Positions 1,876 to 12,621 of a DNA stretch of 62,072 nt are shown piece after piece. The translations under genes and the position numbers were made by a program. Each line of letters opens with the position of its first letter. The first letter of the stretch is position 1. Source of the stretch: Chitinophagaceae bacterium (GTDB lineage Bacteria; Bacteroidota; Bacteroidia; Chitinophagales; Chitinophagaceae); contig CANJQU010000015.1 of NCBI GenBank assembly GCA_947476485.1, positions 1 through 62,072 of the forward strand, read 5' to 3'. The notes beneath the pieces are model-generated. The model had not been told where the DNA came from and searched no databases. It worked only from the letters and a program-made list of their open reading frames with translations.

Positions 1876-2658
1876 ATGAACAACAAAATAATAACGACCC
1901 CGGCAGTGCTAATTATAGCAATCTCTTCCTTTTATGCGTGTAAAAAAAGCAAGCCTAACCCGGGCAATACCGCACAGGTGAGTATGCATCTTACTGATGA
2001 TCCCGCGAACTATGACCATGTGTACCTGGATATACAACAGGTAGCAGTAACAATGTCTGGCAGCAGTGAAGTCACACTTGATCTCATCCGGCCAGGCATC
2101 TATGATCTGCTGCAATTCAAAAACGGACTGGATACACTGCTCGCCAGAGCAATACTACCTGCCGGCACAGTGGGTCAAATACGACTCATACTGGGCAACA
2201 GCAATTCGATAGTGGTAAGCGGTGTAACCTATCCCTTAACAACTCCATCTGCGCAGGAGAGTGGTGTTAAATTAAACCTTCATCAAACATTTGCAGCAGG
2301 CGGCGCTTATGACATCTGGATAGACTTTGATGCAGGAAAATCTATTCTTCAAACCGGTTCGGGAGTATATAAACTGAAACCGGTGATCAGGGCATACAGC
2401 AGCGTCACATTGGGAAACATCAGGGGCTACATACTGCCGCTTGGTGCATTCGCCACGGTTTATGCCATTAACGGCACCGATACTGCCTCCGCCATACCTG
2501 CCGCAGATGGCTACTTTTCTATAAACGGCCTGGCTGCTGCTAACTATGAGATACTGGTGACGCCTGGAATAATAACACTTCAACCCTACACACAACCGAA
2601 TGTACAGGTTACCTACGGTGTTGCAAATAACCTAGGCACAATAACGCTACATCCTTAA
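1876..2658 (+). CDS. DUF4382-like lipoprotein
   Basis: The start is chosen at 1876 (MNNKIITTPAV), because this places a lipoprotein signal with lipobox FYAC at the N-terminus; the upstream ATG at 1840 would bury it. The mature protein opens with V-S-M-H-L-T-D-D-P-A, followed by a 'V.LDIQQV.V' strand. This is typical of DUF4382 proteins, which are beta-sandwich surface lipoproteins of Bacteroidota. The last 70 residues look like a carboxypeptidase-regulatory-like or Cna-B type sandwich (GYFSINGL..ANYEILV). It is probably anchored in the outer membrane. Substrate unknown. Confidence 0.75.
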   Translation: MNNKIITTPAVLIIAISSFYACKKSKPNPGNTAQVSMHLTDDPANYDHVYLDIQQVAVTMSGSSEVTLDLIRPGIYDLLQFKNGLDTLLARAILPAGTVGQIRLILGNSNSIVVSGVTYPLTTPSAQESGVKLNLHQTFAAGGAYDIWIDFDAGKSILQTGSGVYKLKPVIRAYSSVTLGNIRGYILPLGAFATVYAINGTDTASAIPAADGYFSINGLAAANYEILVTPGIITLQPYTQPNVQVTYGVANNLGTITLHP

Positions 2659-2673
2659 CAAGACGCTGATGTC

Positions 2674-2717
2674 AACGATGAAGAAAGGGCTCCGATATCG
2701 AGGGTCCTTTCTTCGTT
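2674..2717 (+). terminator. Likely terminator after the DUF4382-like gene
   Basis: AACGA..AGAAAGG pairs with CCTTTCT..TCGTT around a self-complementary centre (GATATC), with a 3-nt bulge, and is followed by TTAAAA. It lies between the lipoprotein stop and the topoisomerase start. Confidence 0.45.
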
Positions 2718-2772
2718 AAAAGACCAATGCGCAGGGGCATAGTTTTTAATACTGTTAGGCCAAAATGCATCT

Positions 2773-3879
2773 ATGAACGTTGCTCAGCAAATTACCATAA
2801 GAACAAGTAAACTAAGGAAGCTCACTACTACAGACAATGAAGAAACTGCCGCTGCCGCGAACCTGAAATATGTATATGACACCGAACGCGGTATTGAACG
2901 CATAAATCAAGGCGGCTCTTTCAAGTATGTGCTCAGCGGTAAAGAAGTAACCAGTGATGACATATTGCAACGGATAAAGAAACTTGCCATTCCGCCGGCA
3001 TGGACGAACGTGTGGATCTGCAAGGATGCCAACGGTCATCTGCAGGCGACCGGCCTGGACACAAAGGACAGGAAGCAATACCGCTATCATCCACTGTGGA
3101 ATAGCCTGCGGAACCTTACTAAGTTCTCTCATTTACTGGACTTCGGGATCGCACTGCCGGCCATCAAGCAGCGAATTCAAAAGGACATTTCTCAACCCGG
3201 ACTACCGTTAAACAAAGTACTGGCAACTATCGTGTCGCTTATGCAATGCACCTGTATACGCATAGGGAGCAATGAATACGAAAAGCTTTATGGCTCCTTC
3301 GGCCTGACAACACTTAAGGACAAACATGTAAAGATCGCCGGGAATGAGCTCAAGTTTTCGTTTAAAGGAAAGAAAGGTGTCTATCATAATATAGCACTCC
3401 GCAGCAAACGCCTTGCCCGCATCGTGAAGCAATGCAGAGACATACCGGGCCAGGAGCTCTTTCAATACTATAATGAACAAGGCGAGCGCAAACCAATCGA
3501 ATCCGGGATGGTGAACGACTACATAAAAGAGATATCCGGCGCACATTTTACATCAAAAGACTTTCGCACCTGGGCGGGCAGCACCTATGCATTTGAAGCG
3601 TTTCGGGAACTAGGCTGCTGTGACAGCGCTACCGAAGCAAAAAAGAAGATCGGGGATGCGCTGGATACTGTATCAAAGAAACTAGGCAACACCCGCAACG
3701 TATGCCGGAAGTATTATGTTCACCCGGTGATCATAGATTATTATTCAGACAGGACCATTGAAAAATACTTTGTTACAATGGAGCAGCTAAACAGCGCCAG
3801 CAGTGCCGACCTTAGCGCCGAAGAACAGGTGCTGCTGCAGATGCTCAGCGATCTGAAATCTGCGGTAATCGCAGCCTGA
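2773..3879 (+). CDS. DNA topoisomerase IB (poxvirus/eukaryote-like)
   Basis: This 368-residue protein relaxes supercoils by transient single-strand cleavage through a 3'-phosphotyrosine. The N-terminal part has the family hallmarks LKYV.D...GI.R, then IPPAW..VWIC and G.D.K.RKQYRYHP (about residues 75-105). The C-terminal catalytic domain carries RIGSNEY, KDKHV and F.GKKGV around residues 150-200. The nucleophile is very probably Tyr315 in the RKYYVHP motif. Bacterial IB enzymes are scattered accessory topoisomerases, so this is additional to TopA and gyrase. It has full length for the bacterial subfamily. The C-terminal 25 residues are a variable tail. Confidence 0.93.
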   Translation: MNVAQQITIRTSKLRKLTTTDNEETAAAANLKYVYDTERGIERINQGGSFKYVLSGKEVTSDDILQRIKKLAIPPAWTNVWICKDANGHLQATGLDTKDRKQYRYHPLWNSLRNLTKFSHLLDFGIALPAIKQRIQKDISQPGLPLNKVLATIVSLMQCTCIRIGSNEYEKLYGSFGLTTLKDKHVKIAGNELKFSFKGKKGVYHNIALRSKRLARIVKQCRDIPGQELFQYYNEQGERKPIESGMVNDYIKEISGAHFTSKDFRTWAGSTYAFEAFRELGCCDSATEAKKKIGDALDTVSKKLGNTRNVCRKYYVHPVIIDYYSDRTIEKYFVTMEQLNSASSADLSAEEQVLLQMLSDLKSAVIAA

Positions 3880-4249: not shown

Positions 4250-5422
4250 ATGAAAAGGACGTTATTTAAAAGGGTGGCGATCATGGCCGCGGCATCATTG
4301 ATTTTTTATGGATGTAAGAAGCAATCGAGCCCGGGCCCTGATAATACCACAGTTGCAGTACACAGATTTGGTGTAAACCCGATGACAGATGATCAATGGA
4401 ATTTCGTACCTGTTTTCGCACCCGATGTGCTTGGAAAAGGCGCTAAAGGAACCGGTTTGGTTGCAGGAACATTGCCATCCAGTTTCCTATTATCTTCTCC
4501 TGCAGTAAGAGACCAGGGACAGATAGGTAGCTGCACCGGTTTTTGCGGCGCAGAAACAGATGCGATACTTAAGTATTACAAGACCGTAGTAGCACCTGTT
4601 ACTTCAACGGGCCTCGATTCTGCGCATGGCCTGACTACTGCGGTAAGCACCCAGTTTTCCGGTACTTCATTGTTCGGAACCTCCGGTGCATTGAGCCCAC
4701 TGTTCATTTATTATGTTGAACGTTGCGTAATAAACGGAGGATCAATCGGTTCTGATCCAGGAGCTAGTATGGTAAACATCTGCCAGACTTTGCAGGGTTT
4801 ATCAACCAATACGACTTCGGGCCGTACGCTTACCAAGAAAATATCGGGCGTAACCTATACCTTTTCGGGTGATTGCACAGAGAACCTGTATGCCTATCCA
4901 ACAACCGCAACACCATCGTCCAGTCAATATACTACACCGCCGTCGAGCACAGCCATTGCCAGTGCCCCCAGCTTCAAAATTGGAGCACAATCGGGAACAA
5001 CAGGCAGCAGCGGAACTACCACCCATGGTTACTATGTGATCAATTCAACATCACGTGTTAACGACGTTAAGGTGGCCCTGTACAACAAAAAACCTGTGAT
5101 GATGGGTTTTAATGTTTATGATAACAGCGCTTACCAATACTTCGAAGGCCTTGGTGTTACCGGCTATTCGCCGAATAAGTTTGTATATAATCCACTTACC
5201 ACTTCAGGTTCTTTGATCTCCGGGTTGTCATTGTTGGGCGGCCATGCAGTGCCGATAATCGGTTATATAGACCAGGCAGGCGCACCAGGTGGCGGTTACT
5301 TCATTGTTGAAAATTCATGGAATACGAACTGGGGATACCAGGGCTATTTCTACATGCCATATTCTGTTTTAGCGAGCACAACAATAGTTCCGGCAGGAAG
5401 CTTGTATGTTTGTATTATCTAA
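4250..5422 (+). CDS. Papain-family (C1) cysteine protease lipoprotein
   Basis: The signal has a lipobox ending at Cys22 (IFYGC), so it is probably lipid-anchored at the surface or in the outer membrane. The catalytic set of peptidase family C1 is complete. The oxyanion Gln89 and nucleophile Cys95 lie in RDQGQIGSCTGF, the His in GGHAVPIIGY, and the Asn in ENSWNTNWGYQGYF. There is no long prodomain, only about 55 residues between the lipid Cys and the catalytic domain. An insert between Cys and His is rich in Thr, Ser and Gly (residues about 180-260). It is a stand-alone gene with its own promoter and terminator. Likely role: extracellular proteolysis. Substrate unknown. Confidence 0.88.
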   Translation: MKRTLFKRVAIMAAASLIFYGCKKQSSPGPDNTTVAVHRFGVNPMTDDQWNFVPVFAPDVLGKGAKGTGLVAGTLPSSFLLSSPAVRDQGQIGSCTGFCGAETDAILKYYKTVVAPVTSTGLDSAHGLTTAVSTQFSGTSLFGTSGALSPLFIYYVERCVINGGSIGSDPGASMVNICQTLQGLSTNTTSGRTLTKKISGVTYTFSGDCTENLYAYPTTATPSSSQYTTPPSSTAIASAPSFKIGAQSGTTGSSGTTTHGYYVINSTSRVNDVKVALYNKKPVMMGFNVYDNSAYQYFEGLGVTGYSPNKFVYNPLTTSGSLISGLSLLGGHAVPIIGYIDQAGAPGGGYFIVENSWNTNWGYQGYFYMPYSVLASTTIVPAGSLYVCII

Positions 5423-7514: not shown

Positions 7515-7603
7515 CTTTGAATACCTCTTCGCTATCGCTCAGCGTGAGCCTGGAGACGGAGTTATATTTTCACTTCCGGATGCCCTTTTGGAACATCCGG
7601 GAA
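7515..7603. repeat. Dispersed hairpin repeat, copy 1
   Basis: This segment shares an ordered series of blocks with 8369-8460: TTGAATnCC, CTTCG, TCGCTCAG, GGAGACGGAG, and CTTCCGGATGC...ATCCGG, the last forming a hairpin. It is non-coding, although an open frame runs through it into the HD gene. The core TTCG..TCGCTCAGnG resembles a widespread Bacteroidota intergenic repeat. Confidence 0.6.
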
Positions 7604-7711
7604 AATCCGAAAGAGCAGGCGCACACATTTCTTTTCCCGCAGTGGCCCAGAAGACCAAAAATTGTAGTAATTAGCAGAGGGATTTTTTTCGAGGCAGCAA
7701 AATCAACGGAT

Positions 7712-8305
7712 ATGGAATTTGAATTGGTAAAGAAGTTCATCATGAAGAAGCTGAAGAATGAGCTCCCGAAAAATCTCACCTACCACAGCGCTGAGCATAT
7801 TAAAGACGTATACCGCTCCGCGAAGAGGCTGGCTAAGCTGGAAGGAGTGACTGGAGCGGATCTGACGCTGCTGCTTACAGCGGTACTGTTTCATGATTCA
7901 GGCTTCATAAAGAGCCAAAAGGAACATGAGCGCCTTTCCTGCGAGATCGCAAGGGAATATTTACCGGGATATGGCTATAGCGAGGACCAGATAGAACGGA
8001 TATGTGGCATGATCAATGCTACCAAAATACCACAGACGCCGCACAACAGACTCGAAGAAATAATATGCGATGCAGACCTGGACTATCTTGGCAGGGACGA
8101 CTTCTTCAGAATAGGCAAGGGTCTTTATGAGGAGTTGTGCATGTACGGAATTCTTAACGACGTATACGAGTGGAACAAGCTGCAGGTTCGTTTCCTCGAG
8201 AAGCACACCTATTTCACGAAGACGGCGAAGCAGCTACGCAAACCCAAGAAGGATGAATACATAAAGATGGTTAAGGACAAGCTGAAAGAAGATAAAAAGA
8301 AGTGA
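7712..8305 (+). CDS. HD-domain phosphohydrolase-like protein
   Basis: The start is set at 7712 (MEFELVKKF), because the 65 upstream in-frame codons lie in a repeat also found at 8369. The protein has 197 residues. Metal-binding HD motifs are visible: H in YHSAEH, the HD pair in LFHDSGF, a later H of KEHERLS, and D in CDADLDYLG. HD proteins hydrolyse phosphoesters, often nucleotides or (p)ppGpp. The size fits small stand-alone HD proteins rather than full RelA/SpoT. The C-terminus is Lys-rich. The gene sits between two copies of the same repeat, which suggests a mobile or recombinogenic segment. Confidence 0.8.
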   Translation: MEFELVKKFIMKKLKNELPKNLTYHSAEHIKDVYRSAKRLAKLEGVTGADLTLLLTAVLFHDSGFIKSQKEHERLSCEIAREYLPGYGYSEDQIERICGMINATKIPQTPHNRLEEIICDADLDYLGRDDFFRIGKGLYEELCMYGILNDVYEWNKLQVRFLEKHTYFTKTAKQLRKPKKDEYIKMVKDKLKEDKKK

Positions 8306-8720: not shown

Positions 8721-9248
8721 TCATATTGTCCATTCGCGAAATGAACACCTTTTTTGAGAAACGTAATGCGGTCGATTGGTCAGATTAAGAATCAAACAAA
8801 CAGCGGCAGAGGAAAATTTCCCTCTTGGTTGAACGACAACCTCACCATAGTCCCCTGCCGAATACTTGAGCTTTCTACACAATTCAATAACTTTGTTATC
8901 GCTAAACGAAGTATGAATATTATGAGCAAAATTGTTCCTTATTTTCCGTATTAAATCGGCTTCGGCAAATTCCATCTTTGATATTAAGCCTAACGAATAA
9001 GCAGCGGTACACCTAGACGAAAAGGTTCCCAATGGGGCATTAAACCCATCTACTAAAGCAGAGCTTGTTTTTCCTGCAAGGAAATATGATTTAAGGATTT
9101 TCAACATCAATTCATCCAAATAGCTGGCTGCAATTAACACCATGCCCCTATCCGATTCTTTATTCAGCTCGGGTAAAAACTTGTTGAATTCTTTTAAATG
9201 AGGATGCGTTTCTTCAAACGACGGACGATCTTCTTTCATATTTTGCAT
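8721..9248 (-). CDS. MltR-like protein (mannitol repressor family)
   Basis: The start is at 9248 (MQNMKEDRPSF); the longer frame adds a Cys/Phe-rich stretch unlike the family. The family signature is present in order: ESDRGMVLIAASYLDELM, then PLGTFSSR and AYSLGLIS, then a late IRKIRNNFAH. MltR was named as a repressor of the E. coli mannitol operon, but it lacks a DNA-binding fold. Stand-alone homologues occur widely in accessory regions with unknown roles. No mannitol genes are nearby, so the name should not be read as function here. Confidence 0.75.
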   Translation of the reverse strand: MQNMKEDRPSFEETHPHLKEFNKFLPELNKESDRGMVLIAASYLDELMLKILKSYFLAGKTSSALVDGFNAPLGTFSSRCTAAYSLGLISKMEFAEADLIRKIRNNFAHNIHTSFSDNKVIELCRKLKYSAGDYGEVVVQPRGKFSSAAVCLILNLTNRPHYVSQKRCSFREWTI

Positions 9249-9320
9249 TAGTAAAGTAAAGAGAAAAAAAGAATAGCACCCATGTTTAGCTTGAACACTT
9301 AGTCCGTTTCGAAATAAAAA

Positions 9321-9351
9321 AACCGGGAACATCGAGCTGATGTTTCCGGTT
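9321..9351 (-). terminator. Strong terminator of the four-gene operon
   Basis: AACCGG-G-AACATC pairs with GATGTT-T-CCGGTT: 13 pairs including one G-T, with loop GAGCT. On the minus strand it is followed by a T-run (complement of AAATAAAAAA at 9311-9320). It ends transcription arriving from 11632 to 9398. Confidence 0.85.
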
Positions 9352-9397
9352 GAAGTGGAAGGCGGGAATGCCAGAACACTCTCCTATTGTCAATAGA

Positions 9398-9595
9398 CTA
9401 TGATGTTAAAATAACTGTTGCAGCGGATAGTTGGGACTGTCTGTCTTTTATCTGATAATCGCGGTTAACCTCTTCCATATGTTGGTCTATCGCAAAAAGA
9501 CCAGCCAAATCTTCTGTAGAATTCATGACAAAGACTTTATTGTCTGCAGCTAGCTGTGCGAGAACTTCATCTCTTTTATTAAGTATTGTAGCCAT
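9398..9595 (-). CDS. Small last gene of the accessory operon
   Basis: The protein has 65 residues, is helical and acidic, and has no signal or recognised motif. Its ATG overlaps the stop of the preceding gene (TAATG), which implies translational coupling and supports it as real. It could be a small partner of that protein, or an immunity/antitoxin-like component; nothing in the sequence proves either. A strong terminator follows 46 bp downstream. Confidence 0.6.
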   Translation of the reverse strand: MATILNKRDEVLAQLAADNKVFVMNSTEDLAGLFAIDQHMEEVNRDYQIKDRQSQLSAATVILTS

Positions 9596-10320
9596 TAGAA
9601 TCCGTTTAAATTATTTGTAAATATAGAAAAGGAGTGCAAAGGTAGTATATTTCTGACGAAATTTTTCGTGTTCTCATCGAAAAATACAAACTCATTATTA
9701 TATGATGCAGCTATTAGGGCGTTCGTTGTCTGTGTATTTCCTTGTGTTGCGTCAAAAATAAAAATGCCATCAGCCATTTTTGCTTTAATTAAGGCTTTAT
9801 TAGATGTTTCAGCAATCCAAATAAATTTAGGTAGTGCTGTCTCCAGTAATATATCTTTTGTAGGCTGGTCAAAAGTGGTATTAATTGCTAAAGAATGCTT
9901 GAATGAACGGCTAGATGTCAGATAAAATCTGATAAATATTTGGCTATCGTCCGGAACCTTAAATAAATTAAATAAAATTGACTTAAATAGATTTTTTGCC
10001 CTAAACGCTTCTAAATAAACTTTGGAGTATAATGGCACAACAAAATGTGTTATCTCGCAATTATGCCATCTTGCTACTGGATAATGGGCAGCAGGTGCAT
10101 TTATTTTACCTAATTGGTAAATCGGTCTATTATCATCAATAAACACAAAGTCTTTTCGGATATCATCATTATCAAAAAACTGAATTCTTTTTCTCGCTAT
10201 AATACCCGCAATAAGTGGGTCAGTTTCATCAGTGACCTGTAAGCTATCGATTAGATTATCTGTCGTTCTCTCTCTACCTATGGTTAAAACTGCATGCCCA
10301 ATATCACCACCAATATGCAT
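9595..10320 (-). CDS. Unknown protein, possibly N-terminally truncated papain/C39-like
   Basis: The protein has 241 residues from the ATG at 10320, which is one base after the stop of the endonuclease gene. It begins almost at once with GGDIGHAVLTIG. This resembles the His block of papain- or C39-fold cysteine peptidases, where a short 'ESGIPLI.AF' strand normally comes just before. That strand is present in frame upstream of the ATG (back to the TGA at 10375-10377) but would need a non-ATG start. No Cys half is visible. Later blocks are DFVFIDDNRPIYQ, FIRFYLTSSRSFK, LPKFIWIAE and FDATQGNT. Either a functional short form or a 5'-deleted gene. Confidence 0.6.
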   Translation of the reverse strand: MHIGGDIGHAVLTIGRERTTDNLIDSLQVTDETDPLIAGIIARKRIQFFDNDDIRKDFVFIDDNRPIYQLGKINAPAAHYPVARWHNCEITHFVVPLYSKVYLEAFRAKNLFKSILFNLFKVPDDSQIFIRFYLTSSRSFKHSLAINTTFDQPTKDILLETALPKFIWIAETSNKALIKAKMADGIFIFDATQGNTQTTNALIAASYNNEFVFFDENTKNFVRNILPLHSFSIFTNNLNGF

Positions 10321-10321
10321 T

Positions 10322-11185
10322 CTATTTTCGAAAGCTGTAATAAGTGGTATTCCACTTTCTACATTGCTTCTTAATCAGTCTCGATTTGAGCTCATCAATC
10401 GAGAAGGGTTTCGTCCTCTTGTGTAGCATTGCATGACAATTCGGACAAACCGGCCTCAGGTCTTCGACCGGATTAATTTGATATTCTTTGCCTATGCTCC
10501 CTACCGGTGTCATGTGATGAACGTGAATGAAATAACGACCTATGTCGCCATAAAATTCTTGAAAATCGAAATCACATACAGAGCACGTATAGCCGTAGTA
10601 TTCAAGGCAAGCGTTTCTTGCATGCGGATTACGTTCAAACCTAATGGAAAGAAACTCGCTCCGGCTACCCTCCATAAACTTGTTTTCTGTAAAATCGACT
10701 AAGCGTCTATTTATATGGCTATTGTTCAAGAATGTAAACCATGCTTCCTCTAAGGTCGGAACAACCTCCTTTCGTATCTCAATGCCAGAGCTTTGTGTAG
10801 ACCAATGCTGATTTGCAAGAACGCTTTGAGAGTTCTTAAGAAAATCGATGGGTAATATCTCGTCTTTCACGGGATTTATTAGAACATCGAAGTCTATCGA
10901 TACGTAGTCAACATCACCCTTGTTTTCATCGGTCCAGTGTTTTTCTTTAAAAGGTTCGGAAGAAATGTAGCCGCTGCCGAATATTCCTTTTTTTCCTTCT
11001 CCGAGTTTTATAAGAAATGCCCTGTCTCCAACCGTTGCACTTTTATTAGCGCATCTCCAGGTATCTGTGAACTTACCTGTGTTACTTAGTTGTTCAATAT
11101 ATTTTTCAAGATCGCTGCCCCATTTTCCGTGTTTAGGTTCGGCGTTCCAAGTAAAAAGATAAGTGGGTGGGTAATTGTAATCCAT
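10322..11185 (-). CDS. EVE-HNH endonuclease (modification-dependent type)
   Basis: The protein has 287 residues. The N-terminal half (about 8-130) has the look of an EVE/PUA-like modified-base-binding domain: TYLFTWNAE..., DTWRCANKSATVGDRAFLIK, then GIFGSGYI. The C-terminal half is an HNH nuclease with zinc ligands Cys201/Cys204 and Cys247/Cys250, catalytic HVHH (221-224), then DLRPVCPNCHAMLH. EVE-HNH enzymes such as VcaM4I are known to cut DNA containing modified cytosine, so a type IV-like anti-phage role is likely. No methyltransferase is adjacent, consistent with that class. It is second in a leftward operon, 33 bp after the 137-residue gene. Confidence 0.8.
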   Translation of the reverse strand: MDYNYPPTYLFTWNAEPKHGKWGSDLEKYIEQLSNTGKFTDTWRCANKSATVGDRAFLIKLGEGKKGIFGSGYISSEPFKEKHWTDENKGDVDYVSIDFDVLINPVKDEILPIDFLKNSQSVLANQHWSTQSSGIEIRKEVVPTLEEAWFTFLNNSHINRRLVDFTENKFMEGSRSEFLSIRFERNPHARNACLEYYGYTCSVCDFDFQEFYGDIGRYFIHVHHMTPVGSIGKEYQINPVEDLRPVCPNCHAMLHKRTKPFSIDELKSRLIKKQCRKWNTTYYSFRK

Positions 11186-11218
11186 GAAGACAAGGGCTTT
11201 TAAAAGTTGAGCTTAAAA

Positions 11219-11632
11219 CTACCATTTACGTTTGATTGGTCTGATTGGTTGTTTGCCTTCCGATTTTAGTTTAAGATTGAGTGCTCGAGTTTGTCGTCCC
11301 AGACTTGTCCTAAATGAATCAGATGAAAGATCGGTCGTACTCCCGTTTTCTTCGAGGATAATTTTGTTACTGTTCACTTTACGGTATGTTTTACCATCGG
11401 CAGAAATGCTGATCGGCACGTTGACATTATCGTTATCCAATACAATGTCGTATCGAGTGCCTTTTTTCAATTCTGCTTTCTGTAAAAGTATAATGTCATT
11501 AAATCTCATAGTGCCCTTTGAACTCTTCAGACCAACCACGTCAATGAATTCATGCTCTTTGGTCTGTAGATTATCCCGATCTCCTGAAGTTCTTTTAATG
11601 CCATTGTAGGTAGCAGAGATTTCATTACACAT
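11219..11632 (-). CDS. First gene of the accessory operon, unknown function
   Basis: The protein has 137 residues with no signal peptide. The middle is beta-rich (RYDIVLDNDNVNVPISISADG) and the C-terminus strongly basic (KSEGKQPIRPIKRKW), suggesting nucleic-acid contact. No family was recognised. It lies 33 bp upstream of the EVE-HNH gene on the same strand, with no terminator between, so it probably belongs to the same system. It could be a specificity or regulatory subunit; that is inference from position only. Confidence 0.55.
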   Translation of the reverse strand: MCNEISATYNGIKRTSGDRDNLQTKEHEFIDVVGLKSSKGTMRFNDIILLQKAELKKGTRYDIVLDNDNVNVPISISADGKTYRKVNSNKIILEENGSTTDLSSDSFRTSLGRQTRALNLKLKSEGKQPIRPIKRKW

Positions 11633-11694
11633 ATTCGATATATCCTCCCGTTAGATTTTCTTAAATACACATGGAAGATACATCAAAACTTAAA

Positions 11695-11717
11695 GATGGC
11701 GGAATTGGTCGACGCGC
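11695..11717 (+). repeat. tRNA-Leu 5' fragment, inverted relative to the intact tRNA
   Basis: GATGGCGGAATTGGT followed by GACGCGC, with one mismatch between, matches residues 5-27 of the tRNA-Leu at 11888-11971 but lies on the opposite strand. No anticodon, variable or T arm follows. An inverted pair TGTCCG...CGGACA comes directly after it. The fragment marks the upstream edge of the accessory operon and could be an integration scar. Confidence 0.65.
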
Positions 11718-11848
11718 ATGTCCGTAAATAATGTTTGTGCCGGACAATTGAAACATATAAGCAGGAATTACTAAGAGCCTTTACTACAGCGGCTTTCCGG
11801 AGACAATAGTGCAAAAAATAGTGCAAGACGTTTTTGACTAAAACAAAA

Positions 11849-11876
11849 AAGCAGCTATACTAATGTATAACTGCTT
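11849..11876 (-). terminator. Terminator of tRNA-Leu
   Basis: AAGCAG-C-TATAC pairs with GTATA-A-CTGCTT (loop TAAT). On the minus strand it is followed by a T-run (complement of AAACAAAAAA). It lies 12 bp beyond the tRNA 3' end. Confidence 0.75.
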
Positions 11877-11887
11877 GATTTTCAGAG

Positions 11888-11971
11888 TGCCCCGAACAGG
11901 AATCGAACCTGCACTACCTTGCGATAACCAGATTTTGAGTCTAGCGCGTCTACCAATTCCGCCATCGAGGC
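11888..11971 (-). tRNA. tRNA-Leu (anticodon CAA)
   Basis: The acceptor arms GCCTCGA and TCGGGGC pair over 7 bp (one T-G), with discriminator A. The D arm is TGGCGGAATTGGTAGACGCGC. The anticodon loop CTCAAAA carries CAA (reads UUG). A variable arm typical of class II tRNAs follows, then the T arm GCAGG-TTCGATT-CCTGT. CCA is not encoded. An inverted 23-nt fragment of this gene lies about 230 bp away. Confidence 0.93.
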
Positions 11972-11977
11972 CTTTTT

Positions 11978-12009
11978 AGTCGTAAGTTGTAAGTCGTGAG
12001 TCGTAAGTC
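11978..12009. repeat. Degenerate GTCGTAAGT tandem repeat, copy A
   Basis: About four tandem 7-9 bp units (AGTCGTAAGTTGTAAGTCGT...) lie between the tRNA and hscB. The same motif occurs at 40310-40341. Confidence 0.6.
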
Positions 12010-12075
12010 TGCGATTACTCCTTATTCCTTTTTTCAGTTTGCAGTTGGTAGTTGCTGCGAACTGCCGGTGATTTT

Positions 12076-12621
12076 TTACCGGGTTGCAAATCTATCAATT
12101 CTTTCCTTAATGCGCAACAGGTATTTTTTGCGGAAATACTGGTCTTTTACCTGCAATAGTAACTCCTTGTCTTTTTCGCCTTTTTCGAAGCGTTGTATGA
12201 GCGGTTTTGTCGCATCGTCCCAAAGTTCCAGTTGCTCATTGAGCATGGTTGTAGCCCCTGTAAGGGCGTCATTATCGTTTGGGTCGTCTTTGTCGTGGGT
12301 GGCCTCGTAGTCGCTTATCGCTTCATTTATATCCATCATCTCCATAAGGAAGGCCGGGGGCAGGGCATATTTTTCTTCATCCTCCAGCAGGCCGTTCTGC
12401 TTCAGTATGTAAGCCATAGTGGCATCAGGATTTTTGAGGGTTTTGTAGGCTTGATTGTTCATGGCGGCCATGCGCAGCGCCTCGGCCAGTTCGGCACCAC
12501 CGGCCTGGGCAAAGCGGTCGGGGTGGTATTGCCGGCTAAGCTCGTAGAAGGCGCTTTTTACGGCGGCCTGGTCTGGGTGAAAGGAGACGGGCAGGCGGTA
12601 TAGTGTGAAATAGTCTGTCAT
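12076..12621 (-). CDS. hscB: Fe-S assembly co-chaperone HscB-like
   Basis: The start at 12621 (MTDYFTLYRLPVSF) matches the family N-terminus; the longer frame is unrelated. The protein has 181 residues. The J domain (about 1-75) carries the HPD motif in SRQYHPDRF, needed to stimulate the Hsp70 partner (HscA/DnaK). The C-terminal helical bundle includes the P..FLMEMMD..EAI..Y segment that binds IscU-type scaffolds. It acts in cytoplasmic iron-sulphur cluster transfer. It is divergent from the gene at 12651. No isc genes are adjacent. Confidence 0.88.
   Translation of the reverse strand: MTDYFTLYRLPVSFHPDQAAVKSAFYELSRQYHPDRFAQAGGAELAEALRMAAMNNQAYKTLKNPDATMAYILKQNGLLEDEEKYALPPAFLMEMMDINEAISDYEATHDKDDPNDNDALTGATTMLNEQLELWDDATKPLIQRFEKGEKDKELLLQVKDQYFRKKYLLRIKERIDRFATR

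Follow-up and report, generated by a model that had tools for sequence, protein, structure and literature searches.

The DNA analysed here, referred to as the window, is a stretch of 62,072 nucleotides from a Chitinophagaceae bacterium (GenBank assembly GCA_947476485.1, contig CANJQU010000015.1, positions 1 to 62,072). At 9398-11632, four open reading frames (ORFs) run leftward on the minus strand, one of which encodes an HNH protein of 287 amino acids (aa). The first-pass annotation read them as a compact operon around an EVE-HNH endonuclease, closed by a terminator and flanked by tRNA-Leu sequences, in which all four proteins form one candidate anti-phage module. The ORF list contains all four genes as that annotation placed them:

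9398-9595, minus strand: ORF of 65 aa, partner of a peptidase (ORF list, alignment of 4)
9595-10320, minus strand: ORF of 241 aa (ORF list)
10322-11185, minus strand: HNH ORF of 287 aa (ORF list)
11219-11632, minus strand: ORF of 137 aa (ORF list)

From the 137-aa ORF leftward, the genes are separated by gaps of 33 bp and 1 bp and then overlap by 1 bp, which agrees with the earlier spacing. We propose, at a probability of roughly 0.78, that this apparent operon is a chimera, in which an HNH segment has been joined to the rear half of a broken peptidase gene and its small partner.

The junction between the HNH segment and a peptidase gene

Searching 198 genomes of the phylum with the 241-aa ORF gave matches in five, the genome of the window included. 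In the other four, the matching region belongs to a longer open frame, of 509 to 604 codons; three of these align almost end to end (38-45%). The alignment revealed that the 241-aa ORF corresponds to the C-terminal half of proteins of about 500 aa, read here as peptidases. A profile of the full-length peptidase has a single match in the genome of the window, at 9598-10380; it spans profile positions 248-504 of 506 and includes one TGA. This match begins 60 bases 5' of the ATG of the 241-aa ORF, within the HNH gene. The blastn alignment to the intact gene of the same genus (locus L080) starts at 10364, about 44 bases upstream of the 241-aa ORF and out of frame, and the match of the HNH family profile ends at 10361. 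Read in the peptidase frame, the 3' end of the HNH ORF gives VESGIPLITAFENR; the peptidase-frame DNA yields VESGIPLITAFENRMHIGGDIGHAVL, matching YVESGIP...GHALL of the intact proteins.

The tail of the HNH protein was compared with its relatives by tblastn. Matches were obtained in 110 of the 112 other HNH-relative loci, and 99 of the 110 alignments extend no further than residue 274 of 287. In the 11 longer ones, 2-14 tail positions are aligned with 1-5 identities, and six of these alignments run through a stop codon of the target; we take them as chance extension and reject the idea that the tail is native to the family. The ends of the two profiles, the start of the blastn alignment and the tail comparison together point to a junction at about 10361-10380, most likely at 10364. 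Because the reading crosses this junction, the HNH ORF acquires its last ~14 codons and its stop, and a gap of 1 bp separates it from the in-frame peptidase Met. The G+C content is 0.332 in the peptidase fragment versus 0.412 in the HNH segment. The parts involved are as follows:

9595-10364, minus strand: C-terminal half of a peptidase gene of about 500 codons, comprising the 241-aa ORF and ~15 upstream codons (profile, alignments)
10322-10364, minus strand: last ~14 codons of the HNH ORF, out-of-frame peptidase DNA (profile end and blastn)
10361-10380, minus strand: junction interval between the HNH segment and the truncated peptidase gene (both profiles; nucleotide homology from 10364)

The window fragment keeps the His and Asp that are conserved in the family and is without the half bearing the conserved Gln and Cys. 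A relocated N-terminal half was looked for elsewhere in the genome with the profile and was not found. In the scenario that we propose, a probable EVE-HNH restriction gene of type IV (modification-dependent) and its 137-aa neighbour would lie on a segment whose end, at about 10364, was fused to the interior of a peptidase gene. The first ~248 peptidase codons would have been lost, presumably through recombination. The 241-aa product would then be incapable of peptidase activity, and the 241- and 65-aa genes would be leftovers, expressed or not.

A genuine four-gene anti-phage system, in which the half-peptidase, the 65-aa and the 137-aa proteins regulate or assist the EVE-HNH nuclease, would account for the tight spacing, the terminator-like hairpin behind the genes and the ORFs that are open throughout; the four genes are also co-directional and could be co-transcribed, which weighs against a chimera. 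However, the set does not recur. Profiles of the 137-, 241- and 65-aa families (E<=1e-3), run on 113 HNH-relative loci (72 from viral contigs, 41 from genomes), match only L100, which is the window, and none of the 112 others holds any of these three proteins. In this set L101/L140 and L102/L139 are the same places, many relatives share one domain alone, and many loci have short flanks, the 30 loci L100-L129 reaching 1.5 kb on each side. In the reverse direction, 15 peptidase loci searched with the HNH profile yielded a single match, at chance level (E 0.79). Among 395 genomes of the class (two draws, apparently the same 395), 11 carry the peptidase family and 27 carry the HNH family, counting the window's own genome; the two are found together only there and in G559, where they lie on different contigs. 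Moreover, the 1-bp gap is an out-of-frame reading into truncated peptidase DNA. We therefore reject the single module proposed at first pass, on its non-recurrence in HNH and peptidase loci and on the junction, and consider such a system very improbable; within the loci examined, many of them with short flanks, homologues of the other three proteins never stand beside an HNH relative outside the window's own locus, which is the outcome that the first-pass annotation named as refuting its reading.

Two other explanations were considered. Mis-joining of two loci in a draft or metagenome assembly would fit an assembly of 215 contigs, the G+C step across the junction, the failure to find the junction stretch in viral contigs, and the fact that we have seen no second assembly carrying it. 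Yet the junction is internal to a 62-kb contig, and no misleading repeat was seen: the direct repeats within 8900-12100 are 14-15 nucleotides (nt) long, of which one pair (9868/10337) is close to the junction, and the 131 bases surrounding the junction match the genome nowhere else at E<=1. The N-terminal peptidase half is nowhere else in a genome rated 99% complete, as judged by the profile search. We regard an artefact as unlikely. Alternatively, the peptidase C-half and the 65-aa protein may have retained a separate function, such as that of a regulator or immunity factor descended from the intact pair. The 241 codons are open, with no internal stop or frameshift, which would fit retained function as well as our own reading; an ATG right after the HNH stop (TAGAATG) could allow re-initiation, and the 65-aa gene is intact, with its conserved C-terminus. 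Against this, the Gln and Cys that are invariant in 18 of 18 relatives are absent, the open frame also fits a recent truncation, and the 15 peptidase loci contain no second half-copy lacking the Gln/Cys half (the peptidase of L138 has its front cut by the contig end and keeps the Cys region). Retained function thus seems to us improbable, and we favour the chimera with a decapitated peptidase gene.

The HNH protein and the 137-aa protein

The HNH half of the name given at first pass holds. Pfam HNH matches the 287-aa protein with 25.1 bits versus a cut-off of 21.4, and C201, C204, H223, H224, C247 and C250 are invariant in all six aligned rows, window included; we take this combination of His and paired Cys to carry its usual HNH meaning. 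Clear family matches among the four proteins were obtained for this one only. It also matches PHROG HNH families, and its best PADLOC match is mREase_IV (2.5e-5), over the HNH part; the PADLOC scan at E<=1 matched none of the other three proteins. The HNH domain further matched PDB 6ghc, the 5-methylcytosine-specific restriction enzyme A, presumably EcoKMcrA, with E 4.2e-4, or 1.2e-4 with a profile. This likeness is limited to the HNH domain, and the N-terminal domain was unmatched. A single-sequence pattern search found no viral relative of the HNH or the 137-aa protein. We divide the protein into two domains:

10365-10690, minus strand: HNH nuclease domain (Pfam HNH; paired Cys and His-His motif)
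10691-11185, minus strand: probable EVE (PUA-superfamily) N-terminal domain, residues 1-165 (aligned with eight relatives)

The EVE half of the name stands less firmly. Pfam EVE matches four of the nine rows of the N-terminal alignment, with a best E of 5.7e-4, and the one EVE score seen in full, that of L032, is 19.6 bits, below the cut-off of 23. Several results speak against an EVE domain: the window's own row has no Pfam EVE match, three relatives have none at E<=0.05, and a PDB profile search gave no EVE structure. With these weak matches, we consider that the N-terminus is probably an EVE-type domain. The weakness agrees with a published observation: EVE domains of the defence type vary widely and are frequently difficult to recognise (PMC7641849).

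The same source describes EVE-HNH as a class of putative type IV enzymes. The window protein shares the architecture of this class, whereas no curated cut-off places its own domain there. The characterised EVE-HNH enzyme VcaM4I, a modification-dependent restriction endonuclease, binds and flips 5-methylcytosine and 5-hydroxymethylcytosine (5mC/5hmC) via an EVE domain and cuts via an HNH domain (PMC7897488). The window protein resembles VcaM4I in its two-domain order, with a weakly EVE-like N-terminus and an HNH C-terminus, and in size, the domains of VcaM4I being described there to residue 309 versus 287 aa here. In contrast, its last ~14 residues are foreign, and PDB profile searches matched no EVE structure. 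Given the intact HNH motif, the weak EVE matches and the VcaM4I precedent, we consider the HNH protein most likely to be a type IV EVE-HNH enzyme that works without a partner. In such an enzyme the EVE domain would flip out and sense a modified base, and the HNH domain would cut that DNA, as in VcaM4I.

The 137-aa protein has a conserved C-terminal KLK.EGK.PI.PIKR.W. Searches of Pfam, PADLOC and PHROG at E<=1 gave nothing for it, NCBIfam gave a single chance-level match (0.14), and no other genome of the 198-genome phylum sample matches it at E<=0.001. Among 294 genomes of the family searched at E<=0.1, 18 match: its own, G206 (2e-32), G342 (1.7e-4, inside an 812-codon frame) and 15 weaker ones. 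The two clear relatives share 54% and 46% identity. When 84,980 species genomes were scanned with patterns from an alignment of three sequences, two relatives came up, both already rows of that alignment. The AF2 model (pLDDT 71) has no PDB fold match at E<=0.001, and the sequence has no PDB match at E<=1. Neither the 137-aa nor the 241-aa protein was matched in plasmid records, and the 241-aa protein was unmatched in phage records too. Two loci with 137-aa relatives, L075 and L086, contain no HNH relative by tblastn. In L086 (5615-11405), genes matching DndE and DndB are directly followed by the 137-aa relative. A role as Dnd partner of the HNH gene was set aside after a weak search, as the window genome gave no DndE match and control genomes likewise gave none. 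The 137-aa protein is a rare orphan, tied to the HNH gene by adjacency alone.

The flanks and the tRNA-Leu(CAA) site

Three further features border the genes:

9321-9351, minus strand: palindrome resembling an intrinsic terminator, closing the peptidase/65-aa segment (by eye; T run after the hairpin on the minus strand)
11695-11717, plus strand: inverted 23-nt fragment of the tRNA-Leu 5' end (96% complementary)
11887-11971, minus strand: tRNA-Leu(CAA), right edge of a variable site

The tRNA-Leu and its fragment are thus present as first described, the fragment being inverted. The closing hairpin with its T run was likewise seen by eye, although the automated terminator scan does not list it. 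Its palindrome (9324-9349) has a nearly identical second copy in the same genome (G000, contig C41, 31814-31839), and similar stretches are present in same-genus genomes.

Comparing same-genus genomes revealed that the DNA to the right of the site is conserved (tRNA-Leu, a DnaJ-like gene by eye, and beyond), whereas the contents to the left differ. L076 has a tyrosine-recombinase-like piece there, and L079 and L084 have other genes (by eye). In L077, ABC-transporter-like genes (by eye) are followed by a 48-bp exact repeat of the 3' part of the tRNA, about 4.5 kb from the tRNA. L083 has the tRNA flank and, about 2 and 4 kb away from it, a relative (two copies) of the gene at window 4250-5422; the DNA between them holds other content. 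Copies of the tRNA-Leu fragment, 29-34 nt long, are found near the same tRNA flank in L078, L079 and L083. The flank of tRNA-Leu(CAA) is likely an insertion hotspot, and at such a variable site a junction of this kind is no surprise.

Left of the four genes, a 203-aa ORF at 8721-9332 matches PHROG 22031 (9.5e-26) and has weak MtlR/HEPN-type matches. Its true start is probably further in, since the first ATG overlaps the terminator palindrome. An HD-domain protein (Pfam HD, 27.1 bits) is encoded at 7517-8305. An Rfam P14 match at 9985-10121 was taken as chance: it scores 35.6 versus a gathering score of 45 and lies inside coding sequence.

The intact peptidase and its small partner

Gln, Cys, His and Asp are invariant across 15 relatives of the intact peptidase, and in 18 of 18 with three plasmid-borne members added. 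We take their order to be papain-like and, on these conserved residues, read the ~500-aa family as papain-like peptidases. Intact relatives share the four residues with papain-like cysteine peptidases (Pfam Peptidase_C70); the window copy differs, being without Gln and Cys. Peptidases of the C39 type presumably offer a further comparison. On the other hand, several results argue against this assignment. No Pfam family reaches its curated cut-off in 12 intact members; the single match to a papain-type family (Peptidase_C70, E 0.079, spanning Cys to His) is similar in strength to matches of other members to unrelated families (0.09-0.11). In addition, the AF2 model of the intact L141 protein with two rows failed (pLDDT 32.8). 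PADLOC gave no match at E<=1 for six of six peptidase rows, the window fragment among them. Literature searches aimed at the family, limited to an open library, listed no description that we recognised. PMC12923530, which concerns a GIY-YIG enzyme, was set aside. Elsewhere in the window, a 390-aa protein (4250-5422) has a papain-like-looking motif by eye; its relative in L083 is a tandem pair (823-2001 and 2423-3601), near the same tRNA flank.

The peptidase, with about 500 and up to about 720 aa, would be paired with a small protein of about 52-68 aa encoded beside it. In the 65-aa family the C-terminus is conserved as V-I-L-T-x (alignment of 4). In 5 of 15 loci, the gene immediately downstream of the peptidase encodes a homologue of the 65-aa protein (E below 1e-27), three of the five being rows of the search profile itself, and a sixth locus, L131, has a weak match (0.0095). 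Seven further loci (L130, L134, L135, L136, L217, L218 and L219) have small ORFs beside the peptidase, identified by eye or annotation, mostly upstream, and without demonstrated homology to the 65-aa family; none was counted in L011, L132, L133, L137 and L138. In the window's own genus, the intact pair of G210 (L080) consists of 510 aa and 65 aa, with 52% identity over the shared half and 49% for the 65-aa protein, and no HNH match was found in the 15 kb taken around it. Judged from these comparisons of sequence, the peptidase belongs with the 65-aa gene rather than with the HNH gene.

In Bacteroidota and Pseudomonadota, the peptidase family has turned up on chromosomes, on plasmids and on a phage contig. 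In L141 (1-13521), an IMG/VR contig with a phage terminase, the peptidase and 65-aa pair adjoins a Piwi-domain protein and a helicase. The neighbours are a reverse transcriptase and a PRTase-CE protein in L008, a SNF2-type helicase in L080, DUF7665 in L132, a kinase-helicase in L133 and DUF6338 in L010; in L009 a cytosine methylase and a HATPase protein lie a few genes away. The peptidase lies near a caspase-family gene and a DEAD helicase on a Hymenobacter plasmid, and near a TrlF-family ATPase on a Shewanella plasmid. Distant peptidase relatives stand beside multi-ubiquitin, ThiF and DUF6527 genes in L134 (6706-11191) and beside genes annotated as ThiF and multiubiquitin in L217, on a Mesorhizobium plasmid, each with a small ORF upstream. 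L135 has genes similar to the ubiquitin-type neighbours of L134 by eye. Peptidases of the L134/L217 type could act on ubiquitin-like conjugates.

A defence role of the intact pair is a hypothesis. Two observations count against it: the peptidase of L130 sits among housekeeping-looking genes (by eye), and L011, L131, L136, L137 and L138 have no clear defence neighbour by eye. We speculate, tentatively and without rating it the probable case, that the intact pair is an undescribed mobile anti-phage module, found in several cases next to genes such as an Argonaute. The small protein might hold or trigger the peptidase or be cut by it, and the window would carry a copy that lost its front half and was captured by a restriction gene of type IV.

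For the search for defence systems, the analysis removes a probable false positive, an apparently compact operon whose 1-bp spacing results from out-of-frame reading across a junction. Such a locus is a trap for searches based on operons, and it can be caught by checking for homology past the start codon of an ORF. The analysis also points to a peptidase family that has no name yet and comes with a small partner, found beside defence-type genes and on mobile elements, of which an intact same-genus copy is at hand.

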